In this document: one piece after another, positions 4,567 to 46,840 of the stretch
Numbering within the stretch: the first letter of the stretch is position 1
How the letters are laid out: each line of letters opens with the position of its first letter
Source: a bacterium
GTDB lineage: Bacteria; Desulfobacterota; Binatia; DP-6
Reading direction: 5' to 3'
DNA: 64,000 bases
Assembly (NCBI GenBank): GCA_026129405.1
Contig: JAHCID010000001.1
Coordinates: 465,237 to 529,236, forward strand
Made by a program: the position numbers and the translations under genes
Notes under the pieces: model-generated
Seen by the model: the letters and a program-made list of their open reading frames with translations, nothing else
The model's database searches: none
What the model was told of the DNA's origin: nothing

Positions 4567-4926
4567 ATGCGGCGGCGGCAGGCGGCGATCGTACACGCGC
4601 TCACCGCCGCCATCGTGTCCGAGCGCTGGCCGGACCGACCCGCCGACGCCGAGCGCCTGGCGCGCGTCACGGCGGCGGCGCTGGCGCAGGCCGGCCGCGC
4701 CCCCGACGTCATGCGGCTGCCGCTCGCCGTCCTGCTGCACCTCTTCGACGCGGCCCCGCTGGGGCGCGCCGGCCGCCGCTTCGCGCGCCTCGACCGCCGG
4801 GCGCAGGCGGCGGCGGTCGCACGCTGGCGCGACGCCCGGCTCGGCGTCCTGCGCAGCTTCGTGCGCTACTGGGAGAGCGTCGTCGTGCTCGCCTGGTACG
4901 CCGACGACGAGATCCGTGCCGCCTAG
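4567..4926 (+). CDS. small protein preceding a GMC oxidoreductase, function unknown
   Basis: 119 residues, Arg/Ala-rich, all-alpha in appearance. It contains LPLAVLLHLFDAAPLGRAGRRF and a C-terminal segment FVRYWESVVVLAWYADDEI, each broken by polar residues, with no signal peptide. It overlaps the GMC gene by 11 bp, so the two are translationally coupled. Some GMC and gluconate-dehydrogenase-type oxidases have a small partner subunit encoded just upstream, and this protein could play that role. That is inference from position; I recognise no family. Confidence 0.6.
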   Translation: MRRRQAAIVHALTAAIVSERWPDRPADAERLARVTAAALAQAGRAPDVMRLPLAVLLHLFDAAPLGRAGRRFARLDRRAQAAAVARWRDARLGVLRSFVRYWESVVVLAWYADDEIRAA

Positions 4927-6316
4927 CGGACTCGACGCCGAGGTCGTCGTCGTCGGCTCCGGGCCGGGCGGCGCCATCACCGCGGCGCTGCTCGCCGAAG
5001 CCGGTCGCGACGTGGTGGTGCTCGAGGAGGGCCCGGCGCCGATCGCGGCGTGTCCCCCGTACTCGCTGCGCGAGCTGGCGGAGAAGTACCGCGGCGGCGG
5101 CGGCCTCGCGGCCATCGGCCGCGTCCCCGTCGCCTACGCCGAAGCCCGCTGCGTGGGCGGCGGCAGCGAGATCAACAGCGGGCTGCACCACCGGCCACCG
5201 GACGAGGTGCTCGACGCCTGGCGGCGGCGCTTCGCGATCGAGGACTTCGACGCGACCGCGCTGGCGCCGCACCTCGCCGCCTGCGAGCGCGACGTGGGCG
5301 TGCACGCACGTCCCCACGCGGCTCCGCCGGCGTCGCAGAAGCTGCTCGACGGCGCGGCCCGTCTCGGCCTCGCCGCGCTCGACGTGCCCCGCTACGCCGA
5401 CTACGCCGCCGGCGGCGACGGCCGCCGGCTCGGCATGACGACGTCCTACCTGCCGCGGCTCGCGGCCGCCGGCGGACGTCTCGTCGCCGACACCCGCGTG
5501 CGGCGACTGCGACGCACCGGCGGCGACTGGGAGCTGCTCGCCGAGCAACCGGGCGGCCGCGTCACGTTGCGCGCGCGCACCGTCTTCGTCGCCGCCGGTG
5601 CCGTGCAGACACCGGCGCTGCTGCGGCGCAGCGGCGTCACCCGCAACGTCGGAGATACGCTCGCGCTGCACCCGATGGTGCGCGTGCTGGCGCGCTTCCC
5701 CGACGCCGTGAACCCGCCCGACGCCGGCATCGCCACGGCGCAGGTGAAGGCGCTGGCACCGCGGCTCAGCCTCGGCTGCTCGGTGAGCACGCGGCCGTTC
5801 CTCGCGCTCGCGCTCGCCGAGCATCGCCGGCGGCTCGACGACGTCGATGCGGACGCGAGCCGCATGGCGCTCTACTACGCCATGTCGACCGGCGGGCGCG
5901 GCTCGGTGCGGGTGCTGCCGGGACTGCGCGATCCCCTCGTCCGCTACCGGCTCGAGCGCGACGATCTGGCGACGCTCGCCGACGGCCTGCGCGTGCTCTG
6001 CCGCACGCTGCTCGCCGCCGGCGCGACCGAGGTCTACCCCGGCGTGCTTGGGCTCGGCCCGCTGCGCAGCGAGGCAGACGTCCCGCCGGTGCTGCCGCCG
6101 GACCGCACCAGCGTCGTGGCGCTGCACCTGTTCGCGTCGTGCCCGATGGGCGAGGACCGCCGCCGCAGCGCCGTCGACTCCTTCGGCCGCGTCCACGATC
6201 GCCCCGGGCTCCACGTCGCCGACGCCTCGTTGCTCGGCGGTCCGCCGAGCGTCAATCCGCAGGGCACCGTGATGGGCATCGTGCGGCGCAACGCGCTGGC
6301 GTTCCTCGCCCGCTGA
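4916..6316 (+). CDS. GMC-family FAD-dependent oxidoreductase
   Basis: 466 residues from GTG 4916, which overlaps the end of the upstream small gene. Residues ~10-32 form the FAD Rossmann motif VVVVGSGPGGAI followed by an acidic strand end (VVLEEG). CVGGGSEINSGLHHR is the GMC substrate-loop signature. The C-terminus has HLFASCPMGED and ADASLLGGPPSVNPQGTVMG, including the conserved Asn-Pro segment that closes the FAD site. Such enzymes oxidise alcohols or sterols. At 466 residues it is compact compared with the 500-700 of long-chain alcohol oxidases. There is no export signal. Confidence 0.85.
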   Translation: MPPSGLDAEVVVVGSGPGGAITAALLAEAGRDVVVLEEGPAPIAACPPYSLRELAEKYRGGGGLAAIGRVPVAYAEARCVGGGSEINSGLHHRPPDEVLDAWRRRFAIEDFDATALAPHLAACERDVGVHARPHAAPPASQKLLDGAARLGLAALDVPRYADYAAGGDGRRLGMTTSYLPRLAAAGGRLVADTRVRRLRRTGGDWELLAEQPGGRVTLRARTVFVAAGAVQTPALLRRSGVTRNVGDTLALHPMVRVLARFPDAVNPPDAGIATAQVKALAPRLSLGCSVSTRPFLALALAEHRRRLDDVDADASRMALYYAMSTGGRGSVRVLPGLRDPLVRYRLERDDLATLADGLRVLCRTLLAAGATEVYPGVLGLGPLRSEADVPPVLPPDRTSVVALHLFASCPMGEDRRRSAVDSFGRVHDRPGLHVADASLLGGPPSVNPQGTVMGIVRRNALAFLAR

Positions 6317-6359
6317 GCGGCCGGTTCCCAGCCGGCGCGGCGCGCGCTACACGGGGGCC

Positions 6360-7094
6360 ATGGACAGCACCATCACCGAGATCGCGCCGTCGGTCTTCCG
6401 CATCTCCACCTTCCATGCCGACTACGGGATGCAGTTCAATCAGTTCCTGGTGCGCGACGACGAGCCGCTCCTGTTCCACACCGGCTTCCGCGCGCTCTTC
6501 CCGACGACGTGCGCGGCGGTGCGCTCGGTGCTCGATCCGGCGACGCTGCGCTGGATCACCTTCAGCCACTTCGAGGGCGACGAGTCCGGTGCGCTGAACG
6601 AGTGGCTCGCGGTGGCGCCGCGCGCGCAGGCGGCCTGCGGCCTCGTCGGCGCGGTGACGAGCGTCAACGACTTCACCGGCCGCCCGGCGCGGGTGCTCGA
6701 GGACGGCGAGGTGCTGGAGCTCGGAACCCGGCGGCTCCAGTTCCTGCGCACGCCGCAGGTGCCGCACGGCTGGGATGCGAGCCTCCTCTTCGAGCAGACC
6801 GAGCGCACGCTCTTCTGCTCGGACCTCTTCTTCCAGCCGGCCGATCCGCCGCCGCTCAGCGAGGGCGACATCGTCGGTCCCGCGCGCGACGCCATCCTCG
6901 CCAATCGCAGCACGCCGTTCGCCAACGACCTGCCGTACACGCCCCACACCGACGCCACCATCGCACGCCTCGCCGCGCTGGCGCCGCGCACGCTGGCGGT
7001 CATGCACGGCTCGAGCTACCGCGGCGACGGCGGCCGCGCGCTGCGCGAGCTCGGGGCGGTGATCGCCGCGGCGCTCGGCGGGCGCGAGCGCTGA
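6360..7094 (+). CDS. MBL-fold protein of the ODP/flavodiiron type
   Basis: 244 residues. The metal site has the flavodiiron/ODP form H-x-E-x-D (SHFEGDESG, H70, E72, D74) instead of the hydrolase HxHxDH. Later ligands are visible at TPQVPHGWD, FCSDLFF and MHGSSYRG. Stand-alone ODP proteins bind a di-iron centre that reacts with oxygen and can act as O2 sensors or reductases. There is no flavodoxin domain. The gene starts 43 bp after the GMC gene on the same strand. Confidence 0.8.
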   Translation: MDSTITEIAPSVFRISTFHADYGMQFNQFLVRDDEPLLFHTGFRALFPTTCAAVRSVLDPATLRWITFSHFEGDESGALNEWLAVAPRAQAACGLVGAVTSVNDFTGRPARVLEDGEVLELGTRRLQFLRTPQVPHGWDASLLFEQTERTLFCSDLFFQPADPPPLSEGDIVGPARDAILANRSTPFANDLPYTPHTDATIARLAALAPRTLAVMHGSSYRGDGGRALRELGAVIAAALGGRER

Positions 7095-7232
7095 GCGCCT
7101 CCGTGCTGCCGAGAAAGAGCCGCTTCAGGAGCAGGCGGCAGATCGTACCCGGGCCCTCGAGCCGGCCGAGCGCCGCCGCCGATCTTGTCGCTGCTCGTCC
7201 ACCCGTATAGCGGGCGGCGAGGAGGCATCGAC

Positions 7233-7700
7233 ATGGTTTCGCTACCGCTCGAGGGAGGCTGCCACTGCGGCGCGCTGCGATACGGCGTCACGCAGCCGCC
7301 GCTGATGGTCTACAACTGCCACTGCACGAACTGCCAGAGGACGAGCGGCGGCGCGTTCTCGACGCCGGCCACGATCCTGGAGGCGGCGTTCGCGTTCACA
7401 CGGGGAGCACCGCAGCGCTTCGAGTGGACGTCGGATGCCGGCACCACGCGCTTCGGGCTCTCGTGCGGCCGCTGCGGCGGCCGGATCGCGAACGGGCAGG
7501 TCCCGACCAACGGGATACTCAGCCTGCGCACGGGTACGCTCGACGACCGGAGCTGGGTCGAGCCGGTCGGCGACATCTGGGTGCGCAGCGCCCAGGCGTG
7601 GGTGACGCTGCCCCCGGGCCGCATCCGCGCCGAGCAGCAGCCGGCGGACTACGCGCCGTTCCTGGCGGCGTTCCAGGCCCAGGGCCGCACGTTTTCATGA
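7233..7700 (+). CDS. GFA (glutathione-dependent formaldehyde-activating)-family protein
   Basis: 155 residues. The start is fixed by the ribosome site GAGGAGG (7219-7225) eight bases before the ATG. The Zn-binding pattern of the GFA/CENP-V fold is complete: GCHCGALRY, NCHCTNCQRTSG, and a later CGRCGGRI. Family members bind zinc; a true glutathione/formaldehyde role is shown only for a few. Single-gene unit between the MBL gene and the lipid-transport cluster. Confidence 0.85.
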   Translation: MVSLPLEGGCHCGALRYGVTQPPLMVYNCHCTNCQRTSGGAFSTPATILEAAFAFTRGAPQRFEWTSDAGTTRFGLSCGRCGGRIANGQVPTNGILSLRTGTLDDRSWVEPVGDIWVRSAQAWVTLPPGRIRAEQQPADYAPFLAAFQAQGRTFS

Positions 7701-7764
7701 CCGCGTCAGACTTGGGCCGGCAGCATCGCGCACCATGCGTGCAGCGGACGGGCCGGAGTGGGCC

Positions 7765-7796
7765 GTGGTGCCGACGTGCCGGCCCGTCGGCACCAC
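7765..7796. repeat. 12-bp perfect inverted repeat between GFA gene and mlaA
   Basis: Arms GTGGTGCCGACG (7765-7776) and CGTCGGCACCAC (7785-7796) flank an 8-base loop. No T-tract follows on either strand. It may act as a factor-dependent terminator for the GFA gene or as a regulatory site for the mlaA cluster that begins 115 bp on. The remaining 7701-7911 stretch shows nothing else. Confidence 0.55.
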
Positions 7797-7911
7797 GCGG
7801 GTCACGCCGCCTGCCGTCGTAGCGCGCCGTCGTACGGCAGCATCTTTGCATCGTAGTGCTCGAGATGTGGTTTCCGCGCCGAGTGCGCGCGACATGGCGA
7901 GCGGAGATGTC

Positions 7912-8778
7912 ATGAATCGCGGCGGGCGAAAGGTCACAGCAGCACAAGGGATCGCGATCCTCGTGCTCGTCGTGGCTGTCGGCTGCGCACGCAGCCCGGG
8001 CGTCCCCGACCCCGACGGGTCGTTCCACGCGTCCGATTTCTTCTCGCGCGCGAACGACCTCGACGACGCGCCCGACTACGATCCGTGGCGCCCGTTCAAC
8101 GAGGTCGTCTTCAGCTTCAACCACGACGTCCTCGACGGCTGGCTGGTGAAGCCGGCCGCCACGGGCTGGGAGAAGGTCATGCCCGCGGCGGCACGGCGGG
8201 CCATCGGGCACGCCTTCGACAATCTCGACATGCCCCGGCGCCTGGTGAACAACCTGCTCCAGGCGCGGCCGATCGGCGCGGCCCGCGAGCTGGGCCGCTT
8301 CGTCGTCAACACCACGATCGGCGTCGGCGGGCTGATGGACATCGCGGGGATGCTCCACATCGAGCCCAGCAACGCCGACCTCGGGCAGACGCTCGCCCTA
8401 TACGGCGTCGGCGCGGGACCGTACCTCGTGCTGCCGGCGAAATCCCCGCTCACCCTGCGCGATGCGATCGGCTCCACCGCCGACGGCTTCCTCGATCCGC
8501 TCGGCTTCGTGCTTCCCTTCGTCGCAGACGAGGCACGTGCCGTGGTGAACGCCATCAACGAGCGTTCGCTGAAGCTCCAGACGTTCGCCAACGTCGAAGA
8601 AAGCGTCCTCGACCTCTACACGGCCGCACGCAACGGCTACCTCCAGCGACGACGATTCGTCATTCGAGAGGCCGCCGAGTCGCGCGACGAGGAATGGCGC
8701 ACCGAGCTGGGCTGGATCATGGACGAGCCGGATCGACCCATCGCCGCCGCCATCCCCTCTCCGGAGAACCCCTCGTGA
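7912..8778 (+). CDS. mlaA: MlaA/VacJ-family outer-membrane lipoprotein
   Basis: 288 residues from ATG 7912, with GGAG just upstream. A basic N-terminus plus hydrophobic stretch ends at VAVGC, a lipobox with a non-canonical Ala at -3. The MlaA domain starts YDPWRPFNEVVFSFN and continues through GRFVVNTTIGVGGLMDIA and a conserved GVGAGPYLVLP. MlaA sits in the outer membrane with porins and removes mislocalised phospholipids from the outer leaflet. The last codons overlap the next gene by GTGA. It heads a four-gene cluster with an ABC ATPase, an MlaC-like protein and an ABC-2 permease. Confidence 0.88.
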   Translation: MNRGGRKVTAAQGIAILVLVVAVGCARSPGVPDPDGSFHASDFFSRANDLDDAPDYDPWRPFNEVVFSFNHDVLDGWLVKPAATGWEKVMPAAARRAIGHAFDNLDMPRRLVNNLLQARPIGAARELGRFVVNTTIGVGGLMDIAGMLHIEPSNADLGQTLALYGVGAGPYLVLPAKSPLTLRDAIGSTADGFLDPLGFVLPFVADEARAVVNAINERSLKLQTFANVEESVLDLYTAARNGYLQRRRFVIREAAESRDEEWRTELGWIMDEPDRPIAAAIPSPENPS

Positions 8779-9770
8779 AGATCTCCACGCGTCCGCATCC
8801 GGCCGCTTCCGTTCCACGTCCTCGCCTGCACGCCGTCTCGACGGCTGTCGTGCTTCGCGACCTGCGTCGCGAGTACGACGGGCGCGAGGTCGTGCGCGGC
8901 GTTTCGCTCGAGATCCAAGAGGGCGAGATCTTCGGCCTCCTCGGCCCGAACGGCGCCGGCAAGACCACGCTGCTCTCCATGATCTCGACGCGGCTACGAC
9001 CGACGAGCGGCGACGTGTGGGTGCACGGCAAGCACGTCGTGCACGACGTCGACGCCGCCCGCCGCTTGCTGAACGTCGCGCCGCAGGACGAAGGCCTCTA
9101 CCCGAGCCTCAGCGGCGCGGAGAACCTGACGTTCTTCGCCGAGCTGTACGGCGTGCCGCGCCGGACGCGGCCCGCCGCCGTCGCCGACGCGCTCGAGGCC
9201 GTCGGCCTCACGGCGCGCAAGGACGACCGCGTATCGATCTACTCGGGCGGGATGCGACGACGCCTGAACCTCGGTTGCGCGCTGGTGAGCAGCCCGCGCG
9301 TCCTGCTGCTCGACGAGCCCACCGTCGCAGTCGATCCGCAGTCGCGCGCCAACATCTTCGACGCGGTCCGCGCGCTCCGTGCACGCGGCATGACGATCCT
9401 CTACACCACCCACCAGCTGCCCGAGGCCGAGGGGCTCTGCGACCGCATCGCCGTCATGGACCAGGGCCGCGTCGTCGCCTGCGGCACGCTGCCGGAGCTG
9501 CTGGCGCTGTCGCACGCGACCGAGATCATCGAGCTGCGGCTCATGCAGCCGCTCGCCACCACGGCGCCGATCGAGGCCATCGAGGGCGTCCGCTCCGTCG
9601 ACGCCACCGGCCACGAGCTCCGGGTCTTCACCACCCGCGCACAGCACGTGCTGTCGCGCGTCTACCAGGTCGTGGGCAGGATGGGGCACGGCATCGTGCG
9701 CACCCGCGTCACGCCGGTGACGCTCGACGACGTCTTCCTCGAGCTGACGGGAAAGGGGTTGCGGGACTGA
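8775..9770 (+). CDS. ABC transporter ATP-binding protein (ABC-2 export type)
   Basis: 331 residues from a GTG overlapping the mlaA stop. Walker A is GLLGPNGAGKTTLLS (~residues 51-65), the signature is YSGGMRRRLNL, Walker B is VLLLDEPTVAVDP, and the switch His is in TTHQLPEAE. The D-loop, signature and C-terminal extension (TLDDVFLELTGKGLRD) are typical of DrrA/YbhF-like ATPases that pair with ABC-2 membrane proteins, not of MlaF. The partner permease is two genes downstream. It overlaps mlaC by TGATG. Confidence 0.9.
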   Translation: MKISTRPHPAASVPRPRLHAVSTAVVLRDLRREYDGREVVRGVSLEIQEGEIFGLLGPNGAGKTTLLSMISTRLRPTSGDVWVHGKHVVHDVDAARRLLNVAPQDEGLYPSLSGAENLTFFAELYGVPRRTRPAAVADALEAVGLTARKDDRVSIYSGGMRRRLNLGCALVSSPRVLLLDEPTVAVDPQSRANIFDAVRALRARGMTILYTTHQLPEAEGLCDRIAVMDQGRVVACGTLPELLALSHATEIIELRLMQPLATTAPIEAIEGVRSVDATGHELRVFTTRAQHVLSRVYQVVGRMGHGIVRTRVTPVTLDDVFLELTGKGLRD

Positions 9771-10348
9771 TGCGCACCGTCGCGATCCTCGCCGTGGGGC
9801 TGGCGCTGGCGAGCGCCGGCGGCGTGCGCGCCGACGACGGGCCGATGGCCTTCACCCGCCAGGTGCTCGAGCGCAGCAACCAGATCGTGCGCGGACCGGA
9901 GGATCGCAAGCAGAAGCTCGCGGCGCTGAGCGATCTGCTCCGGGGCTTCCTCGACACCGACGCGCTCGCCCGGCTGGCCGCCGAGAAGCATCTCGAGGGC
10001 CGCAGCGACGCCGAGGTGCAGGAATTCCTCGGCCTGTTCCACGACTTCTTCGTCCGCACCTACGTCCAGCGGCTGCTGCTGTTCGACGCGCCCGACTTCG
10101 CCTACCACCAGGAGCGGATCGACGGCGACACGGCGCACGTCTCGACCGAGGTGGTCACGCCCGGCGATCGCTTCGCCGTCGACTACACGTTCCGGCACAC
10201 GCCGGGCGGCTGGCGCGCCACCGACATCGACGTCGAGGGCGTCAGCCTCGCGAAGAACTTCCGCGCCCAGTTCGACTCGGCGGTCGCGAAGGACTCGTTC
10301 CAGGGGCTGCTCGATCGGCTGCGGGCGAAGGTGAACGGGACGGCGTAG
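9770..10348 (+). CDS. mlaC: MlaC/Ttg2D-like periplasmic phospholipid-binding protein
   Basis: 192 residues. A cleavable signal peptide (MRTVAILAVGLALASAGGVRA) precedes an MlaC domain: VLERSNQIVRG, KLAALSDLLRGFLDTDALAR, FLGLFHDFFVRTYVQRLL, VDYTFRH, GWRATDIDVEGVSLAKNFR. These match the helix-sheet pattern of MlaC, which ferries a phospholipid between MlaA and the inner-membrane complex. The start codon overlaps the ATPase stop. Only 4 bp separate it from the permease. Confidence 0.85.
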   Translation: MRTVAILAVGLALASAGGVRADDGPMAFTRQVLERSNQIVRGPEDRKQKLAALSDLLRGFLDTDALARLAAEKHLEGRSDAEVQEFLGLFHDFFVRTYVQRLLLFDAPDFAYHQERIDGDTAHVSTEVVTPGDRFAVDYTFRHTPGGWRATDIDVEGVSLAKNFRAQFDSAVAKDSFQGLLDRLRAKVNGTA

Positions 10349-10352
10349 CGGC

Positions 10353-11456
10353 ATGTGGTCCGTCTTCGTCAAGGATCTGCGGGTCTTCCTGCGCGACCGC
10401 AACGCGCTCGCCTTCGCGCTCCTGATGCCGGTCCTCGTGATCACGGTGATCGCGCAGGGCTTGTATCGCTCCGATTCGGAGGACCGCCGTCCGCCGCTCG
10501 TCCCCGTGGTGAACGAGGACCAGGGCCCCGTGGCGACGACGTTCGTGAAGCTCCTCGGCGAGCACGCCGACGTGCGCGAGGTGAGCCGCCCCGAGGCCGA
10601 GGCGCTGGTGCGCGACCGGCACGCAGCGGCGGCGGCGATCGTCTTCCCGCCGAAGCTCAGCAAGCGGTACTTCCAGGGCGTCTCGAGCGAGCTGCTGCTG
10701 CTGACGGATCCCGCCGCCGGCAGCGACCTCCAGACCGTGAAGGTGCTCCTGCTCCTGATGGACAAGGATGCGGCCGCGCTCGCCGATCCCTTCGCCGAGG
10801 AGAAGATCACGCTGCGCGAGGAGAACCTCACCGGCAACAAGCTCGAGGTCTCGGTCTTCGAGGAGCGCGTACCGGGCTTCGCGTTGATGTTCGTGCTGCT
10901 CGCGGTGGTCTTCGGAACGTCCATGAGCATGCACGACGAGCGCGACTCCGGGACGCTGCCGCGACTGCTGATCGTGCCCGGGGGCTTCACCCGCATCATG
11001 CTCGGCAAGCTCGCCGCACGGCTCGTCGTCGGCGTCGTGCAGATGCTGGGCCTGCTCCTGTGGGCCCACTGGGTATTCGGCGTCTCGCTCGGGACGTCGC
11101 CGGCGGGGATGCTGGTGCTCACCGTCGCCTGCGTGTTCGCGGTGGTCGCCGCCGGCATGGTCGTCGCCGGGCTCACCCGCTCGCGCGAGCAGACGCTGCC
11201 GCTGGGCCTCTCGGTGGTGATCGTACTGTCGGCCGTCGGCGGCTGCTGGTGGTCGCCGTCGATGCAGCCCGATTGGATGAACCGCGTCGCCCCCGCCGTC
11301 TTCTCGACCTGGGCGATGCGCGGGCTCAACGATCTGATCCTGCGCGAAGGCGGCCTGGCCGCGATCGCGCTGCCGGCGAGCGTGCTGTTCGCCTACGGGG
11401 CGGTGACCCTGGCCGTGGGGATGTACCTCTTCCGCCTGCGCCACGCGGGGCGGTAA
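10353..11456 (+). CDS. ABC-2 type transporter permease
   Basis: 367 residues. An N-terminal TM anchor (FVKDLRVFLRDRNALAFALL) is followed by a ~130-residue soluble periplasmic part. Five or so TM helices occupy the C-terminal half, with the ABC-2 motif SGTLPRLLIVPGGFTRIMLGK between them. This layout is that of the YbhR/ABC2_membrane_3 group. With the adjacent ATPase it should form an inner-membrane exporter. Because MlaA and MlaC homologues share the transcript, lipid is the likely cargo (inference). Confidence 0.85.
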   Translation: MWSVFVKDLRVFLRDRNALAFALLMPVLVITVIAQGLYRSDSEDRRPPLVPVVNEDQGPVATTFVKLLGEHADVREVSRPEAEALVRDRHAAAAAIVFPPKLSKRYFQGVSSELLLLTDPAAGSDLQTVKVLLLLMDKDAAALADPFAEEKITLREENLTGNKLEVSVFEERVPGFALMFVLLAVVFGTSMSMHDERDSGTLPRLLIVPGGFTRIMLGKLAARLVVGVVQMLGLLLWAHWVFGVSLGTSPAGMLVLTVACVFAVVAAGMVVAGLTRSREQTLPLGLSVVIVLSAVGGCWWSPSMQPDWMNRVAPAVFSTWAMRGLNDLILREGGLAAIALPASVLFAYGAVTLAVGMYLFRLRHAGR

Positions 11457-11474
11457 CGCTGGGGCCGCGGCGTC

Positions 11475-12164
11475 CTACTCCGCGTCCGGCGGGCAGAACC
11501 CGTCGGGGGCCGCCGTCGCCTTCACCTTGCTCGCCGGCGTGGCCGCCGCGGCGACCTCCGGAAGGCCGTCACTCCCTGATCCCTTCGACACCAGCGCCTT
11601 GAAGGCGGCCCACGGGAACGCCGACCCGGGGTCGGAACGGCGCTTGGGGTCGAGCTTCGCGTGCGAGACCACGTGGGCGAGGTTCGGATACTTGCTCCAG
11701 CAGTACCGAACGATCTGCGCCGTGACCTCGATCTGCCAATCGGAGAAGGGGTCGTTCTTCTGCGTGTTGACCACCTCGATGCCCAACGACCAGTGGTTCA
11801 CCCGCTTGGCGCCGCCGTTGACGCTCGGATGGCTGGCGGTATTGCGCACGTGCCACGCTGCGCGTGCCTCGGGGGCGCACGCCCAGACCAGGGTCCCGTG
11901 CTGCGGCTCCTTCTCGGCGGGAACGAGCCAGTGGAACGAGGCGTCACCCGCCTTCATCACCGAGATGGCGCCCTCGGAGCTGGCCCCCGCGGTCGCGTGG
12001 ATGACGACCGTCGTAACGCCGAGGATCGGGTCGACGCTGCGCTTGGTGGTGCAGGCCTCCCAGTACTTCTGGATGCCGGGATACCAGACCTCGCTCAGCG
12101 CGACGTCCGTCGGACGCCCGCGGCTGGAGAGATCGAACTGATACTTGTCGGCCGGACCACTCAT
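11475..12164 (-). CDS. N-acetylmuramoyl-L-alanine amidase (Amidase_2)
   Basis: 229 residues from ATG 12164, chosen for the strong GAAGGAGA site upstream. The zinc/catalytic residues of the T7-lysozyme-like fold are visible: H56 in VVIHATAG, E130 in NHWSLGIEVVN, H168 in VVSHAKLDPK, D178 in RSDPGSAFPW. It would cleave the MurNAc-L-Ala bond of peptidoglycan. No signal peptide is seen, so it is either exported by another route or acts on recycled or phage-released wall. It converges with the ABC-2 permease gene. The 12165-12412 stretch behind it shows no gene. Confidence 0.85.
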   Translation of the reverse strand: MSGPADKYQFDLSSRGRPTDVALSEVWYPGIQKYWEACTTKRSVDPILGVTTVVIHATAGASSEGAISVMKAGDASFHWLVPAEKEPQHGTLVWACAPEARAAWHVRNTASHPSVNGGAKRVNHWSLGIEVVNTQKNDPFSDWQIEVTAQIVRYCWSKYPNLAHVVSHAKLDPKRRSDPGSAFPWAAFKALVSKGSGSDGLPEVAAAATPASKVKATAAPDGFCPPDAE

Positions 12165-21999: not shown

Positions 22000-22881
22000 T
22001 CAGCGTTCGATCTTGAAGGGGGGCGTGACGTTGCCCAAGCCCAAATCGACGGTCTCCACGCGATACAGACTGACTGCGGGATCGGGCGGCTGGACGTCAT
22101 GCGTCACGCAGCAGCGGATGCACGTACATGCGCCAGTCTCCACTCCGAACATCGTCGTCGGATGGCACTGGAACGCCGATCCGACGGGAACAACGACGCC
22201 GACGGGGTCCGGTGCAGGGTCGAGGTCGTCGCAAGTGACGGTCGGAGCCGCCGTATCGGGAGGCGTCGCGCACTTGTAGGCGAAAGCGTCTTGCGAATAA
22301 GAGCCGGTGCTGACTTCGGCGTCCACCTCTGACGTGAAGAGATAGCCGCTCTTACCGTCCGCGCTGGGAAGGACCACCCTCATCAGGTCGCCAGCAAACA
22401 GGGCGGTACTACTATCGGTGAGTGAGAAGCGGCCTCCTACGCATTGCGCCCCCTGATGTGCGAACTGGTATTGGAAGTCGTCTAATATGGATGAGAAGCC
22501 CAGGCCGTCGGTGCTCATGGGGAATACGGTCGGCTGACCGTCGATCGTGCGCAGCGCCGCAACCCCAAAGCTGCCGAACGACATCAGCGAGCCGACCTCG
22601 TTGCCGGCGCTGTCCACGATCCGCGGTCGTGTTCCCGACAATGTCGGCAACGTGGTGGTCGTAGTGGGGAGTGTAGTCGTCGTGGGGAGCCCGAGCAGAA
22701 CGCTCGCATCCCCGACGCTCTCCTTCTTTTTGCAGGCCGCGCCTCGGATCGTCACCTTGGTGACGACGCCCTTCTTGTTCTTCGCAACGCAAAGCACGGC
22801 GTTCGCATCGCTCCAGCCGAAAAGCGTGGCGCCGATGAACATGCCGGCGAGTGCGCAAACTTCGACGCCCTTCAATCGCAT
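22000..22881 (-). CDS. secreted cysteine-rich protein, tandem paralogue 1, function unknown
   Basis: 293 residues. It has a signal peptide (MRLKGVEVCALAGMFIGATL, cleavage after DANA) and then VLCVAKNKKGVVTKVTIRG followed by ACKKKESVGDASVLLGLP, a short N-terminal module. A Thr-rich linker (TTTTLPTTTTTLP) leads to a ~190-residue domain ending in a Cys cluster (CTCIRCCVTHD) and LGLGNVTPPFKIER. The ribosome site AAAAGGGA precedes the ATG. The neighbour at 22970 shares signal peptide, module, linker and C-terminal motif. Probably an exported surface or periplasmic protein; I know no function. Confidence 0.75.
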   Translation of the reverse strand: MRLKGVEVCALAGMFIGATLFGWSDANAVLCVAKNKKGVVTKVTIRGAACKKKESVGDASVLLGLPTTTTLPTTTTTLPTLSGTRPRIVDSAGNEVGSLMSFGSFGVAALRTIDGQPTVFPMSTDGLGFSSILDDFQYQFAHQGAQCVGGRFSLTDSSTALFAGDLMRVVLPSADGKSGYLFTSEVDAEVSTGSYSQDAFAYKCATPPDTAAPTVTCDDLDPAPDPVGVVVPVGSAFQCHPTTMFGVETGACTCIRCCVTHDVQPPDPAVSLYRVETVDLGLGNVTPPFKIER

Positions 22882-22969: not shown

Positions 22970-23833
22970 TCAGTGCTCGACCTTGAATGGGGGCCTGCTG
23001 TCTCCCAAACCTAGATCGATGGTCTGCACGCGCCAGAAAGGCAGCGGCACGTCCGGCAACGTCGCACAGCAGCGGCGGCATGTACATTGGGTCGTCGAAT
23101 CCAGTTGGCACGGGTACTCCGATCCGATGGGAGCGAATTCCGGACCGTTGCAAGCGACGTTCGTGGGCGCTGGATCGGGAGGCGTGGCACACGCGACCTG
23201 GATATCCTCGTGCGACCAGACCCCGACGTGAAGCTCCGACGTCAGCACATAACCGCTCCTACCGTCCATGCTGGGATAGGCGATCTTGACCAGGTCGCCG
23301 TAGCCCTGACTCAAAGGCAGGAGGGCACTAAAAAATGGTGCGACGAGGTCTCCTTCGCAATCGGTCCCCTCGTGCTCGAACCCGTAAAAGAAGTCGTCCC
23401 GTGCGATTGGGGGTTCCACGTACCCGAGGGCCTTCAGGCCATCTATGACGGCCGGGCCGCTGCTGCGCATGGGGAATGTGATCGCCTGATCGTCGATCGT
23501 GCTCAGCGCCCAAACCCCCTCGCCGAGCAACCCGACGTTCGGGTTCACCCAGGCGACGTCGTTGCCGGCACTGTCGACGATCCGCGCGGCTCGTTTTCCC
23601 GGCAACGTGGTGGTCGTCGTGGAGGACGTAGTCGTCGTGGGGAGCCCGAGCAGGACGCTCGCATCCCCGACGCTCTCCTTCTTTTTGCAGGCACCGTCTC
23701 GGATCGTCACCTTGGCGATGACGCCTTTCTTGCTCTTCACGCAAAGCACTGCGTCCGCATTGCTCCAGCCGAAAAGCGTCGCGCCGAGGACCATGCCGAC
23801 GAGCGCGCCAATGTGGACGCCCTTCATTCGCAT
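22970..23833 (-). CDS. secreted cysteine-rich protein, tandem paralogue 2, function unknown
   Basis: 287 residues from ATG 23833 (AAAGGGGA upstream, matching the paralogue's start MRLKG with MRMKG). Signal peptide, then VLCVKSKKGVIAKVTIRDG and ACKKKESVGDASVLLGLP, nearly identical to the neighbour. The Thr linker is shorter (TTTTSSTTTTTLP), and the C-terminal domain has diverged except for the blocks RIVDSAGNDV, SGYVLTSEL, CTCRRCC and TIDLGLGDSRPPFKVEH. The leader sequence upstream is also shared, so the duplication included the promoter region. Confidence 0.75.
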   Translation of the reverse strand: MRMKGVHIGALVGMVLGATLFGWSNADAVLCVKSKKGVIAKVTIRDGACKKKESVGDASVLLGLPTTTTSSTTTTTLPGKRAARIVDSAGNDVAWVNPNVGLLGEGVWALSTIDDQAITFPMRSSGPAVIDGLKALGYVEPPIARDDFFYGFEHEGTDCEGDLVAPFFSALLPLSQGYGDLVKIAYPSMDGRSGYVLTSELHVGVWSHEDIQVACATPPDPAPTNVACNGPEFAPIGSEYPCQLDSTTQCTCRRCCATLPDVPLPFWRVQTIDLGLGDSRPPFKVEH

Positions 23834-24041
23834 GCGAGGTGTCCCCTTTCCGGAGAGACGGTGGGATCGTTCCGAAGGGGAGCTTGGGACTATGTGCGGG
23901 GGCCTCATCTGCGCCCTTCCTTCGCAGGCGGACGTGTGGACGGCCAGCCCGAGTCGATCGTTGTTCCGAGGGGTCTACCGCGGACTTTTGCGTCAGTCTA
24001 GCCCGCTGGCTTCCCGGGCAATCCCCTGATGTGTGGCACGC

Positions 24042-24296: not shown

Positions 24297-25514
24297 CTAG
24301 GCAGACCTCGCGGGCTCCAGCATCGGTGCTTCCGAACGCCCGAGGTGCACCATCCATAGCGTGCCAAGGAGCCCCATACCCGCCGGGAGGAGAAAGGCGA
24401 GCACGGTATGGCCCGCGGAGAGCAGAAGGCCGACGGTGACGCTCGAAGCCATGTCACCTACGGCATTGGCTGCGGCGAGAACCCCGAAGCCGAGACTTCG
24501 CTGCTCGCGCAAAAGTATCTCGGCAGCGACGGCCTTCTCGAGCGTCTCCTCCGTCGCGAGGTAGACACCCGAACACATGATGGCAAGGACAAGGAGTGCG
24601 GGAGCACCGCTACTGAAGGCGAGCAGGATGTTGGTGACAACGCCGAGTGCATATCCGCCGGCAAGAACGCGGAGCTTGGAGCCGCGGTCGCCGAGGCGGC
24701 CTGCAGGATACGCCGCGGCAGCGCTGATGGCATTGTGGACGGCGTAGAGAAGCACGGGGACCGATAGCGTGCTCGGTGTGGACCCAGTGCCGTGTGCGAA
24801 TGTCGCGGCGGCTAACAGAATGAGAAAGGTGCGAGAGAAGTCGCCCAGGCCAAAGAGCGTGACGCCGGTGAGGTAAAGCCAGAAGCGGCGCGGGAGTCGG
24901 AGGCTCGCCGACGTAGTCGGTGCATCGTCCGCGACCGGGCGGTCCCGGGTTAGCGAGAAGAACGAGAGGACCGCCACTAGGGCTGGCACAAGTGTCAGCA
25001 GGATGATGCTGGAGACGCCGACGCCGAATGCGATAAGCAGCGCAGCCAGGAGGGGCCCGGCTACCGCGCCGAGCATGTCCGCGGCGCGTTCGACACCGTA
25101 GGCCCGGCCAAAGTGCGTGGGGCCGACCTCATCGGCAAGCATGCAGTCGCGGAGCGGCGCGCGGAAGCCGCGCCCTAGCCATGCGATCGAGCGTGCCGCG
25201 AGAAGACCGGTGAACGTCTGCATCAGCGCAAGTGATGCCGTTCCAAGCGCCGTGACGAGGTATCCGAGGGAGCCCCATCGGCGCTTGTGCTCTGTGTGAT
25301 GTCCGACCCAACCGCCGACTAGCTTGGAGAGGCTGAATAGCAAATCGGCGAAGCCTTCCATGACACCCAGGGCCGCGGCGCCAAATCCGATGGTCTGCAG
25401 GTACAACGGCAAAGTGGCGGTCGCCATTTCGTGCGCGACGTCCGAGAAGAAGGTCGCGAGCACGATGCCGACGATTCCCCGGCCAAGCCAGGTAGGTCCG
25501 AACCAGCGAGTCAT
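24297..25514 (-). CDS. MFS transporter
   Basis: 405 residues with about 12 hydrophobic segments. Between TM2 and TM3 lies KLVGGWVGHHTEHKRRWGS, and after TM4 GRGFRAPLRDCMLADEV, typical of a drug-efflux-like MFS subgroup. The mid-protein loop contains the charged stretch SLTRDRPVADDAPTT. It lies 141 bp downstream of the NYN gene on the same strand, so it could be the last gene of the fluoride operon or an independent unit. Substrate unknown. Codon use is less GC-biased than outside the island. Confidence 0.85.
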   Translation of the reverse strand: MTRWFGPTWLGRGIVGIVLATFFSDVAHEMATATLPLYLQTIGFGAAALGVMEGFADLLFSLSKLVGGWVGHHTEHKRRWGSLGYLVTALGTASLALMQTFTGLLAARSIAWLGRGFRAPLRDCMLADEVGPTHFGRAYGVERAADMLGAVAGPLLAALLIAFGVGVSSIILLTLVPALVAVLSFFSLTRDRPVADDAPTTSASLRLPRRFWLYLTGVTLFGLGDFSRTFLILLAAATFAHGTGSTPSTLSVPVLLYAVHNAISAAAAYPAGRLGDRGSKLRVLAGGYALGVVTNILLAFSSGAPALLVLAIMCSGVYLATEETLEKAVAAEILLREQRSLGFGVLAAANAVGDMASSVTVGLLLSAGHTVLAFLLPAGMGLLGTLWMVHLGRSEAPMLEPARSA

Positions 25515-25655
25515 GTCCCAGCGGAGAAGAGGTGTCTCAGTCGCCCGCGGGAGTGAGGCCGCTCAAGACTCCAAGGCGATCGTGAACCAATCGCGGAGGA
25601 TCGCCGCGTCGAGATCGCACCTGATGAGGTGGATTCTGCTCTTGTCAAAGCAGGT

Positions 25656-26234
25656 TCACGTAAGACGGCGCCTGTGGGAACGGCGTCGACGGCTGCATTC
25701 GTTGTAGCTCCGCGCAGACGACGGAGTCGCCTCTCGGCGTTGATCGAGAGCGCGCAGGGACAGCCGCCGAAATGCCACGCCTCGGGTCGCGGCGACGTCG
25801 CCGACCGCGTCGAAGGCCTGATCGTCACTGACGATCTCCAGCGTATCCCCCGCGAAGGCATCACCGAGCCAGCGACCTACATCCACTGCGATGCGCAGAT
25901 CGCTCCAGTCCTTCACGCCGATGACCGGCGCACTGTGAAGCAGCGTCGCGCCGGCACGCGACAGAAGATGTGACGTCTCGACGCTGACGACACGCCAATT
26001 GCCGACTGCCGACACATAGCTGCGCCCCCCATCCGGCAGGCCGAGATGATCGAGCATGGCGGCGATGTGTGTGGCGCGACTGGCGTTCTCCACGTCGAAG
26101 AAGATGGCCCGGCGCGGCTCCCGCGGCACATCCGAACCGAGCGCCGGCTTCGCGGCAGATGCAGTGGTCGTAGCGGAAAGCTTCCTATTGCACGGCAGAA
26201 GCGCCCCGACGTCGATGGGCTTACTCCGTGGCAT
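25656..26234 (-). CDS. NYN-domain (PIN-like) putative ribonuclease
   Basis: 192 residues. Acidic residues of the NYN/PIN nuclease fold are in place: AIFFDVENAS (residues ~43-52), KDWSDLRIAVDVGRWL, and EIVSDDQAFDAVGDVAATRG. The start overlaps the DUF190 gene end by 14 bp, so the genes are coupled. NYN proteins are single-strand or structured RNA nucleases in several pathways. The C-terminal ~30 residues are Arg/Ser-rich and disordered. Its presence behind crcB and DUF190 under a fluoride riboswitch is unusual. Confidence 0.75.
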   Translation of the reverse strand: MPRSKPIDVGALLPCNRKLSATTTASAAKPALGSDVPREPRRAIFFDVENASRATHIAAMLDHLGLPDGGRSYVSAVGNWRVVSVETSHLLSRAGATLLHSAPVIGVKDWSDLRIAVDVGRWLGDAFAGDTLEIVSDDQAFDAVGDVAATRGVAFRRLSLRALDQRREATPSSARSYNECSRRRRSHRRRLT

Positions 26235-26577
26235 TCCCGTGCACGTATCGAATGACCTCGGCCTTCTCGAGAGTGACGAGTCCGCCGCTTCCTGCTGCCT
26301 CGATCATCGCGCCGAACTCGGGGAGCGCTGCCCGGATTTTCTCGTCCGTGTCTACAATCTCGAGAATGACCGGGAGATCCTCCGACAGGCGGAGAATTTT
26401 GGCGGTGTGGATCCGACTGTGCACGCCGTATCCTGCGATTCCGCGACACACCGTGGCACCTGCCAGCCCCAATGTGTGGGCCTTCTCCACGAGCAGCTCA
26501 TAGAGCGGCCTGCCGTGGAAACGGTCCGACTCTCCGATGAACATGCGTAAGAGCTTGCCTTCGTCGATGATGTTCAT
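26221..26577 (-). CDS. DUF190-family protein
   Basis: 118 residues from ATG 26577 (GAGGAC upstream). MNIIDEGKLLRMFIGESDRF begins the family, followed by PLYELLVEKAHTLGLAGATV, RGIAGYG and DLPVILEIVDTDEKIRAALP, a ferredoxin-like PII-related fold. DUF190 genes are commonly found next to crcB. A regulatory or accessory role for the fluoride channel is assumed but I know no direct proof. Eight bases separate its start from the crcB stop. Confidence 0.88.
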   Translation of the reverse strand: MNIIDEGKLLRMFIGESDRFHGRPLYELLVEKAHTLGLAGATVCRGIAGYGVHSRIHTAKILRLSEDLPVILEIVDTDEKIRAALPEFGAMIEAAGSGGLVTLEKAEVIRYVHGNATE

Positions 26578-26584
26578 GATGTCC

Positions 26585-26971
26585 TCACAGTAGACGCGCC
26601 GCGATGCTTCCCAGCCACACGGCGCCAAGGCACGCGGCGAACGTAACGCCGAGGTTTCCCATGGCGAGCCATCGCTCCCCCTCGCGGAGGAGCGCGAGCG
26701 TCTCATAGCTAAACGTGGACATGGTCGTGAACCCGCTGCAGAACCCCGTCGTCAGCAGGATGCGGAGGTCGGCGCCGACGAGCCCGCGCTCGAGAGACAG
26801 CGTCATTACCAGGCCAATGAGGAAGCTCCCGAGGATATTCACGACGAGTGTTCCCCACGGGAAGCCATGGTTGGCGAGGGTCTGCACGACGTCGATGAGC
26901 CAGTAACGCGCGACGCAGCCGGCGAGTCCGCCGAGGGCTGCGAGGGCAAAGCGTGAGAGCGACAAGCTCAT
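26585..26971 (-). CDS. crcB: CrcB/Fluc fluoride ion channel
   Basis: 128 residues, four TM helices. Family motifs: GGLAGCVARYWL, the pore Asn in PWGTLVVNILGSFLIG, and GFCSGFTTMSTFSYE, where the conserved Phe box and TM3 break (TTMSTFS) line the F- pathway. Fluc channels are dual-topology dimers that let cytoplasmic fluoride leak out. A single gene is enough. It overlaps the upstream dynamin-like gene by ATGA and lies in an operon headed by a fluoride riboswitch, which confirms the assignment. Confidence 0.94.
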   Translation of the reverse strand: MSLSLSRFALAALGGLAGCVARYWLIDVVQTLANHGFPWGTLVVNILGSFLIGLVMTLSLERGLVGADLRILLTTGFCSGFTTMSTFSYETLALLREGERWLAMGNLGVTFAACLGAVWLGSIAARLL

Positions 26972-27972
26972 GGAGCGTATCCGTGCCGTTGGAGAATCGC
27001 TCGGATCGCCTCTCGAGCTGCGGTTAGTCGCTCGCGCTCTTCGGCGGTCGCTTCCGCGCCTCGCCGTTGCTGCACTTGGGCGCGCTGTAGAGTACGTTCA
27101 GCAATCCCATAGCCGTCTCGGATTCGCTCGCGGAGCTCTTGTTCGAGCCGCCGGTGGCTCTCGCGCACTTGGTCGTCGAGGTCACTAGTCACGCGAGTCG
27201 AGTTGGCGACGATCAGTCGATCCAGGTAGTCGACGGGGTGCTCCATGAGGGTCGAGGTGAAGAATCCCGGGAGCCGAAACAGATCGCTGAACCATCGCGC
27301 CGGAGAGCGGCTGGTTATGTATATTAGCTCCGTGAAGTAGATTCCGCTCTTGCCGTGAAATCCGCGTCCAGCTTCGAGAACGGGCGGTATCTCCGCTGGT
27401 TGACCACCACTCTGGGAGACCACCCTGGCGAGAAAATCGTTGGCGAGGTCGACAAACCATTTCATCGCGGAACGATATGCGGCCTCGGCTATCGGTTGTT
27501 CTTCCTGTCGCCAGGAATCGAGGAGGCGACGATAGATGTGCTGGGCAACCTGATGCGCGTCGCGCCAACGCTTGACGCGAGAATGCGACTCGCCAGCCCC
27601 GATGACGCTGCGGAGTTCCTCCTGCGCAGCCGGGCCTACGCGCATCCGGAATGCCTGCTGTCGTTCGACGAACTGGGCTCGAAGTCGGCTCTCTTCTGCG
27701 GTCAGCAAGGAGCCGAAGGCACGCAGCGAGTGCTCCGCAGATGCCGCGACCTGCCTCAACGCCGTGATGCGCTGTTGGGATTCGGCAAGTGGTCGTGTCA
27801 GCGGGCCGACGCATGCTACGTAAAAGAGCCCCGCGGCGACCCGATCGGCGAACTCAGCGGTCTCAACGGAAAGCGCGCTGATTTCAAGCTTGGCCGCGAT
27901 GGCCGCGAACTCGCGCAAGCCTGCGGGACCGACGGGGGAGGGGCTGGCGGTTTGAAGGGCGATCGCTACCAT
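26968..27972 (-). CDS. dynamin-like protein lacking its GTPase domain
   Basis: 334 residues. The N-terminus runs ISALSVETAEFADRVAAGL then FYVACVG. In bacterial dynamin-like proteins FYVACVG is followed at once by the G1 loop GQFKRGKST. Here it joins directly to PLTRPLAESQQRITALRQ, a segment that normally follows the GTPase domain. No G1, G3 (DxPG) or G4 motif exists. The remainder is helical coiled-coil rich, with a hydrophobic-amphipathic segment RWFSDLFRLPGFFTSTLMEH. First gene after the fluoride riboswitch; its stop overlaps the crcB start. The start is uncertain: ATG 27972 lacks a clear ribosome site. Confidence 0.6.
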   Translation of the reverse strand: MVAIALQTASPSPVGPAGLREFAAIAAKLEISALSVETAEFADRVAAGLFYVACVGPLTRPLAESQQRITALRQVAASAEHSLRAFGSLLTAEESRLRAQFVERQQAFRMRVGPAAQEELRSVIGAGESHSRVKRWRDAHQVAQHIYRRLLDSWRQEEQPIAEAAYRSAMKWFVDLANDFLARVVSQSGGQPAEIPPVLEAGRGFHGKSGIYFTELIYITSRSPARWFSDLFRLPGFFTSTLMEHPVDYLDRLIVANSTRVTSDLDDQVRESHRRLEQELRERIRDGYGIAERTLQRAQVQQRRGAEATAEERERLTAAREAIRAILQRHGYAP

Positions 27973-27985
27973 CGTTGTTGCTCAT

Positions 27986-28034
27986 GGTAGGAGTCATCAG
28001 CCCTTCGGGCAGTTATACGGCGAACCCCATCGCC
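27986..28034 (-). promoter_or_regulatory. fluoride riboswitch (crcB motif)
   Basis: Reading the minus strand: GGCGATGGGGTTCGCC, then GTATAACTGCCC, GAAGGGC, TGATGACTCCTACC. This has the full crcB-RNA layout: stem GGCG/CGCC closed over ATGGGGTT, conserved ATAACTGCC, hairpin GCCC-GAA-GGGC, and the terminal TGATGACTCCTAC that pairs back (GGGGT with ACTCC forms the pseudoknot arm). It ends 13 bases before the ATG of the first operon gene. Fluoride binding should raise expression of the operon including crcB. No terminator stem is visible, so control may be at translation. Confidence 0.92.
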
Positions 28035-28182
28035 GAAGATGTTAGGTTAGCTGCCCGCAACGGGGGACGCAACTATTCTCTCATCGCGTCTCGCGCTGAA
28101 CGTCCAAGTGGAGCTGCTTCTTCGCGCGGATGGCCGCGTCCTCGAAGACTTTGGTCATCAGCGCGCCGCGGTTCGTGAGGCC

Positions 28183-46114: not shown

Positions 46115-46282
46115 GGAGCGATCGTACACGCCGAAAGTGACCTGACAACCCGCGACCGCGCCAACGTCCGGACGTCGTAACCAACGTGCAAGATTGTCAT
46201 CCGCCTCCGTCCAGGGACGATCGGCGCCCTTGACAGCGGGTACCTCTTCGGCCAGAACGCCCCCCCGAATCTAAGTAAACAT

Positions 46283-46412
46283 ACCCACGCCGAATCCCCG
46301 AGTCGGGGAGCGGAGGACCCAGCGTTCTCTGGGGTGAATCCTGGTCAGCGGCAACGCCAGGACGGGCCATGCTCTTGGGGTCCGAACCCGTCAGCTAACT
46401 TCGCAGGCGTAC
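46283..46412 (+). promoter_or_regulatory. cyclic di-AMP riboswitch (ydaO/yuaA motif)
   Basis: Conserved blocks in order: GCCGAATCCCC, GGGGAGCGGAGGACCCA, CTGGGGTGAATCC, GGTCCGAACCCGTCAGCTAA and CTTCGCAGGCGT, with P1 formed by ACGCC (46287-46291) and GGCGT (46406-46410). This is the ydaO pattern. A TTGACA box lies upstream at 46230-46235. The aptamer ends just before the rlpA ribosome site. c-di-AMP normally turns such genes off; the probable off-switch is the terminator at 46446-46476. Confidence 0.92.
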
Positions 46413-46426
46413 GAGGAGCGGGATCC

Positions 46427-46840
46427 ATGACGACCGTGCTCATACGAGCCGGGGGAGCGATCCCCCGGCTCTTTTTGCTTTGCCTTGGACTGGCTTTCTG
46501 CCTGACGACGGTGCCGGCCCGTGCCGATCTGGTGTCGGATGACGACTATCCGCCCGAGCGGATCGGCAAGGCATCCTGGTACGGCCCCGGGTTCGTGGGC
46601 CGCAAGACTGCCAGCGGCGATCGTTTCGATCCGAACCTGCTGACGGGCGCTCATCGCACGCTGCCCCTCGGCACGAAGGTTCGCGTCACGAATCTCAAGA
46701 ACGGCCGGTCGGTCCTGATCACGATCAACGATCGTGGTCCCTTCATCCGCCATCGCGAGCTCGATCTCTCCGAGGGAGCAGCGCGCGAGCTTCAGATGAA
46801 GGGCCAGGGCGTGGCTCAGGTTCTGATCCAGCCGCTCTGA
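46427..46840 (+). CDS. rlpA: RlpA septal-ring lytic transglycosylase-like protein
   Basis: 137 residues from ATG 46427 (GAGGAG at 46413-46418). Signal peptide: RAGGAIPRLFLLCLGLAFCL, cut after ARA. The mature protein is one double-psi barrel: GKASWYGPGFVGRKTASGDR, AHRTLPLGTKVRVTNLKNGR and INDRGPFIRHRELDLS, with the catalytic Asp in NDRGPF. It lacks the SPOR domain of E. coli RlpA. It cleaves denuded peptidoglycan glycans. Codons 7-17 overlap an intrinsic terminator, which links its expression to the c-di-AMP riboswitch. Confidence 0.9.
   Translation: MTTVLIRAGGAIPRLFLLCLGLAFCLTTVPARADLVSDDDYPPERIGKASWYGPGFVGRKTASGDRFDPNLLTGAHRTLPLGTKVRVTNLKNGRSVLITINDRGPFIRHRELDLSEGAARELQMKGQGVAQVLIQPL
46446..46476 (+). 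terminator. intrinsic terminator inside the 5' end of rlpA
   Basis: An 11-bp GC-rich stem (GAGCCGGGGGA / TCCCCCGGCTC) with a GCGA tetraloop is followed at once by TTTTT. It lies 34 bp beyond the c-di-AMP aptamer and within the rlpA reading frame. It is the best candidate for the riboswitch expression platform. Confidence 0.85.

Follow-up and report, generated by a model that had tools for sequence, protein, structure and literature searches.

The window analyzed here, a 64,000-nucleotide (nt) stretch of contig JAHCID010000001.1 (positions 465,237 to 529,236 of the forward strand; assembly GCA_026129405.1, a DP-6 bacterium of the class Binatia, Desulfobacterota), carries on its minus strand a fluoride riboswitch (crcB motif; RF01734) whose first downstream gene encodes a dynamin-like protein (DLP) lacking the GTPase (G) domain. 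Linkage of related DLPs to fluoride riboswitches is conserved across at least three phyla. The genes behind the riboswitch are read here as a fluoride-induced resistance operon, the first gene of which represents a conserved DLP family of the fluoride regulon that would act at the membrane (probability of roughly 0.6).

Linkage of DLP genes to fluoride riboswitches

Among the 395 genomes of the window's phylum, 64, including that of the window, encoded members of the DLP family (E ≤ 1e-50). The remaining 63, which held 68 DLP loci, were scanned with the RF01734 model. A riboswitch was located on the same strand within 3 kb upstream at 54 of these loci and within 600 bp upstream at 49, and chance co-location, for which about 0.01 was expected, was rejected as an explanation of the 49. 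Of the unlinked loci, some adjoined the end of a contig or belonged to genomes that had no riboswitch at all. Within the window's class, the DLP gene was directly downstream of the riboswitch in four genomes (G003, G081, G076, and G082) and within a riboswitch-led operon in another (G018).

The linkage was also present outside this phylum. From 396 genomes of the phylum that includes a Terriglobia locus (L071), 30 DLP loci were taken; at 20 of these, a riboswitch was located on the same strand no more than about 1.9 kb upstream. In L071 itself (positions 8056 to 11809), the single riboswitch of the genome headed genes for CrcB, three tandem DUF190 proteins, and a full-length DLP. An actinomycete genome (L072) contained two riboswitches, both at its DLP, and in an Acidobacteriaceae locus (L073), riboswitch, enolase, DLP, and CrcB followed one another in a row. 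Unrelated DLP loci served as a negative control and had no riboswitch (0/12); these 12 riboswitch-free loci rule out the view that all DLPs adjoin riboswitches.

Full-length relatives (about 587 to 620 amino acids [aa]) contained intact G1, G3, and G4 motifs (GQFKRGKS, DTPGIGS, and NKAD or SKAD), matched PF00350 (Dynamin_N) above the cutoff (E values of 5e-26 and 1.5e-26), and matched the solved DLPs CjDLP, BDLP, and IniA by sequence. A fold search with the Terriglobia relative, modeled by AlphaFold (predicted local distance difference test [pLDDT] of 64), likewise placed BDLP and IniA first. The NCBIfam LeoA model, where it was matched at all, gave 22 bits against a cutoff of 325. In several class members, the tip has an aromatic and basic segment that reads RSPxRWxLDxxRP or nearly so and is a plausible candidate for membrane contact. 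The riboswitch-linked DLPs apparently constitute an undescribed, widespread bacterial dynamin-like family.

No paper joining the fluoride riboswitch with dynamin, bacterial or otherwise, was found in the open-access literature, although an earlier mention in a supplement is possible. Papers naming crcB together with dynamin, or bacterial dynamin-like proteins together with fluoride, were unrelated by title and abstract. The published fluoride-riboswitch genes include exporters, antiporters, enolase, pyrophosphatase, haloacid dehalogenases, formate hydrogen lyase, and mutS, and no dynamin was named in either the 2024 fluoride review (PMC11139923) or the body of the paper by Weinberg from 2010 on the crcB motif (PMC2864571).

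The window operon and its DLP without a G domain

All operon genes were on the minus strand (Table 1). The complete crcB-motif RNA that the original prediction placed at positions 27986 to 28034 lies inside an RF01734 match that covers the full model and exceeds its gathering score, and this was the only match in the 5.63-Mb genome. The CrcB and DUF190 proteins expected under such an RNA scored above the cutoffs of PF02537, TIGR00494, and PF02641. The overlapping or nearly overlapping gene ends were likewise recovered, with a 4-nt overlap between the DLP and crcB genes, a 7-nt gap between crcB and the DUF190 gene, a 14-nt overlap between the DUF190 and NYN genes, and, after about 140 bp, a downstream gene for a transporter of the major facilitator superfamily (MFS). 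From this spacing, a single, tight, riboswitch-led operon in the order DLP, CrcB, DUF190, and NYN-like protein is predicted, with the MFS gene further on.

Table 1. Features of the fluoride riboswitch operon (positions are those of the whole 64,000-nt window)
Feature	Position	Strand	Evidence
Fluoride riboswitch aptamer (RF01734, model positions 1 to 64 complete)	27981..28043	-	cmscan, 57.2 bits versus gathering score of 34; E 3.2e-13
Predicted expression-platform hairpin enclosing the DLP start codon	27954..28006	-	Fold prediction
DLP without G domain, 334 aa; junction FYVACVG then PLTRPL	26968..27972	-	Alignment to full-length DLPs
CrcB/Fluc fluoride channel, 128 aa	26585..26971	-	PF02537, E 3e-28; TIGR00494, 93.2 versus cutoff of 80.45 bits
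DUF190 protein, 118 aa counted from the ATG at 26577	26221..26577	-	PF02641, E 2e-36; 124.6 versus cutoff of 23.4 bits
Stand-alone NYN-like protein, 192 aa	25656..26234	-	Homologues match PF01936
MFS transporter, 405 aa; subgroup recurrent in fluoride riboswitch clusters	24297..25514	-	PF07690, E 4e-30

The window DLP had no match of its own in Pfam or NCBIfam, and as the only query in a profile scan of genome contigs, it returned no matches; the same scan succeeded with an alignment of full-length DLPs. In a comparison of 98 genomes (its own and relatives), it matched frames in seven others, and except for one copy truncated by a contig end, it aligned to the C-terminal half of longer frames (591 to 816 aa; E values down to 1e-47 against full-length DLPs). 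Identity to their C-terminal helical domain was 38 to 39%, and similarity was also found to their first ~60 residues. In an eight-row alignment, both ends were present and columns 76 to 324, comprising the whole G domain with motifs G1, G3, and G4, were absent, which agrees with the earlier description of the protein as dynamin-like and GTPase-less. An alignment with the Terriglobia relative alone misplaced the N terminus and was left out of the conclusions. The deletion is in frame and at domain borders, and all 334 codons are open; judged from the alignment, the window copy is a derived form of a GTPase family. No clear separate dynamin G-domain partner was found in the window genome, in which PF00350 gave only weak split matches in very long frames. 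Long helices were predicted in the AlphaFold model.

The helical domain of the window DLP retained 31 of 37 positions (84%) that were invariant in the seven other DLPs, which themselves retained 89 to 100% in the same leave-one-out test, and both its mean identity and its invariant-site retention were the lowest of the eight rows. These values, together with a branch 1.7 to 1.9 times longer than those of the nearest kin (0.58 and 0.68) and the occurrence of this form in a single genome, would be expected if the protein were a remnant in which the rest drifts after the deletion, with CrcB left as the only working part of the operon. A remnant of this kind is quite possible, if not the favored outcome, and a messier G-less DLP copy in another phylum (L187) adds to its case. 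The uninterrupted reading frame, the placement of the deletion, the 31 retained positions, and the retention of both the gene start beside the riboswitch and the 4-nt crcB overlap argue against it. Based on one genome, the rates fit a protein whose constraint has changed or loosened better than one decaying freely, and the window DLP would be either a GTP-independent membrane or oligomer protein or a gene in early decay. The second copy without most of the G domain (L187; G613:C25, open reading frame [ORF] 1429 to 2604) has a start that looks broken and no riboswitch within 1.5 kb.

The leader had a minimum free energy of −42.1 (z score of −4.0). In its best fold, GAAGGGC, from the P2 strand of the aptamer, pairs with GCCCUUC within the DLP gene, and CUACCAU pairs with AUGGUAG, closing the DLP start codon. 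A terminator-type expression platform was not supported, as the leader contained no terminator-like site, and a translational platform was considered instead. Since formation of P2 would compete with the outer stem, the fold hints weakly at translational ON switching of the DLP gene. The predicted pairing probability of the start codon was 0.90 to 1.00 without the aptamer helices and 0.78 to 0.99 with these helices enforced.

Partner genes and neighboring loci

The genes that accompanied DLPs in riboswitch clusters encoded the partners known from fluoride operons, namely CrcB, DUF190 (in some cases fused to CBS), enolase, an Na+/H+ exchanger, and the universal stress protein Usp, with MutS-V pairs in some clusters. 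In G018, one riboswitch led genes for the exchanger, Usp, DUF190-CBS, CrcB, DLP, and enolase, and a divergent riboswitch led an MFS gene and a broken NYN copy.

The NYN-like protein of the window had no match of its own in Pfam, PF01936 included, and a PDB profile search for NYN gave chance matches only. Its identity was upheld by homology, as 8 of 13 homologues in the family matched PF01936 (best E value of 1.8e-6) and the window protein shares the family's invariant acidic positions. The invariant residues (D47, E49, N50, D109, D112, D138, and D142 in A3) may be equivalent to the PIN/NYN catalytic residues. Two other genomes of its family encoded relatives 62 to 69% identical to the window protein over 124 aa, and a second NYN protein of the window genome (G000:C2:555009-555479) was 57% identical over the domain. 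Longer NYN paralogues across the class carry a conserved C-terminal segment, GFxRPPGSPRLVTRLRRxKD.

The original prediction treated the dynamin-like and NYN genes as a pair and asked whether they are absent from other crcB loci. The DLP is present at such loci in dozens of genomes from at least three phyla, with full-length GTPase forms as the rule and the window copy as a derived deletion; the conserved member is the DLP, not the pair. Support for the NYN gene at other crcB loci was thin and consisted of two further loci, both next to an MFS gene: in G003, the stand-alone NYN gene adjoins MFS and DLP genes, and in G018, the broken copy is behind the MFS gene. The three genomes with a stand-alone NYN gene and a riboswitch were near kin only.

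Of 148 genomes of the class, 14, counting that of the window, encoded the MFS subgroup (E ≤ 1e-60). In five of the riboswitch clusters that contained it, the MFS gene was similarly placed, about 5.2 kb downstream of the riboswitch. There is about an even chance that the NYN and MFS genes are passengers, neighboring genes that a single lineage took up into the fluoride operon and that have no fluoride role. Passengers would fit the restriction of the stand-alone NYN gene to three genomes, broken in one, and the wide distribution of its longer paralogues in the class, but the MFS subgroup was in riboswitch clusters in 10 of its 14 genomes, one member had its own riboswitch about 170 bp upstream, and MFS-NYN adjacency recurred in three genomes of two families. 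Any contribution of either protein to the fluoride response would be putative.

In another locus (L171; G196:C29, positions 4688 to 9695), a riboswitch was followed by genes for a DLP, an Na+/H+ exchanger-like protein, a Usp-like protein, and a different, weakly Tet(A)-like MFS transporter, suggesting repeated recruitment of MFS partners. Fluoride islands, with 4 to 11 fluoride riboswitches per genome and many of these within 20 to 40 kb, were observed at L034 and L161 (G082:C61:126000-162000), G076:C4:119000-140000, G504 (C191/C321), and G489:C227. The G082 island included genes for an IlvD-like dehydratase, two MutS-V proteins, MgtC-DUF4010, pyrophosphatase, enolase, a MetK-like protein, CrcB, and DUF190, as well as membrane subunits resembling those of NADH dehydrogenase or formate hydrogenlyase; several of these genes were named from sequence only, and the island looks like a reserve set of functions that are sensitive to fluoride.

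Elsewhere in the window, a cyclic di-AMP riboswitch (RF00379; 89.9 bits) was found at positions 46278 to 46425 of the plus strand, overlapping the start of an RlpA-like frame (46334 to 46840). Two adjacent minus-strand paralogues (22000 to 22881 and 22970 to 23908), 47% identical and apparently secreted, each contained a threonine-rich linker.

Proposed function and comparison with known systems

In the prevailing view of fluoride toxicity, enzymes are the main target and export is the countermeasure. In the resistance operon proposed here, fluoride would enter as hydrogen fluoride (HF), the riboswitch would turn on expression, making it fluoride dependent, and CrcB would let fluoride out. The DLP would act at the cytoplasmic membrane, most likely assembling via its long helical stalk and the conserved aromatic and basic tip, and the assembled protein would stabilize, tether, or reseal a membrane stressed by HF and by loss of the proton motive force. 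A comparable role under other membrane stress is ascribed to DynA, IniA, and LeoA-type proteins. Because the window copy has lost its GTPase, it could work only as a GTP-independent scaffold or tether, with stalk and tip kept, if it is not in early decay. The earlier suggestion of a stress response in which the DLP and NYN proteins shield membranes or RNA against fluoride may hold in part; the DLPs, with a putative function, are best read as a neglected component of the fluoride response that is directed at the membrane. A more far-reaching version, that fluoride stress in many bacteria induces a dedicated DLP family working on the membrane beside fluoride export and that at least one lineage does so without GTP hydrolysis, with stalk and tip as the active part, is tentative and on balance rather unlikely.

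Several results weigh against the proposed reading of the operon. Fourteen of the 68 DLP loci of the phylum had no riboswitch within 3 kb upstream. Both AlphaFold models were of low confidence (pLDDT of 61 for the window DLP and 64 for the Terriglobia relative), and nothing significant was matched by the window model in the fold search. The DLP start codon was mostly paired even with enforced aptamer helices, which leaves the switching model weak. The branch of the window DLP was 1.13, compared with 0.58 to 0.71 for most kin over the same columns, and since this copy is fast evolving and unable to bind GTP, its own function may be lost.

Metal fluorides with GDP (AlFx, BeFx, and MgFx) trap dynamin-family G domains, and an OPA1 GDP-AlFx entry was among the fold-search matches. 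The DLP might then be a fluoride target itself, a Mg-dependent enzyme inhibited like enolase or pyrophosphatase, whose dose the riboswitch raises. Enolase adjoins the DLP in several loci; its place under the riboswitch has been ascribed to overproduction of an enzyme under inhibition, and pyrophosphatase genes rank with those found most often behind fluoride riboswitches (PMC11139923). However, no housekeeping Mg-GTPase (Era, Der, or EF-Tu) was noticed in the DLP operons, and the window copy is retained under the riboswitch without any G domain. A target role is distinctly unlikely.

It is highly improbable that the DLP, with the NYN protein, is an anti-phage defense module that sits here by chance. 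DynA gives Bacillus subtilis phage tolerance and has been linked to membrane surveillance (PMC8844932), and full-length relatives weakly resembled LeoA/LeoBC models in PADLOC (E values of 3e-19 to 2e-8). Against this, the DLP is linked in three phyla to the fluoride riboswitch and to genes of the fluoride response, no defense genes were noticed beside it, and the window DLP and NYN proteins had no meaningful match to defense models. Given the weak PADLOC matches, the defense reading was dropped.

If the membrane reading is true, a riboswitch-controlled membrane-remodeling protein kept across phyla would make the membrane itself a target of fluoride or HF. Bacterial dynamins, the triggers of which are to our knowledge mostly unknown, would gain a defined chemical inducer, and the DLP would become a candidate gene for engineering of organofluorine degradation. 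The natural G-less variant would provide a built-in test of the need for GTP hydrolysis.

Compared with NYN domain proteins (PF01936), family members match the model and have conserved acidic residues, whereas the window form is short, stands alone in a fluoride operon, and is a putative nuclease only. The full-length DLPs resemble BDLP (2J69), IniA (6J72), CjDLP1/2 (5OWV), DynA, and LeoA in having a Dynamin_N G domain and a long helical stalk; fission has been described for IniA (PMC6715688) and tethering for the CjDLP pair (PMC6104087). Unlike these proteins, they form a separate family, far below the NCBIfam cutoffs and linked to fluoride riboswitches, and the window copy differs further in having no G domain. 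The window is like the published fluoride riboswitch regulon in its complete aptamer, CrcB, and DUF190, and the enolase, Na+/H+ exchanger, Usp, pyrophosphatase, and MutS-like proteins of related clusters are known or expected partners; relative to the published lists of that regulon, the DLP would be an extra member.

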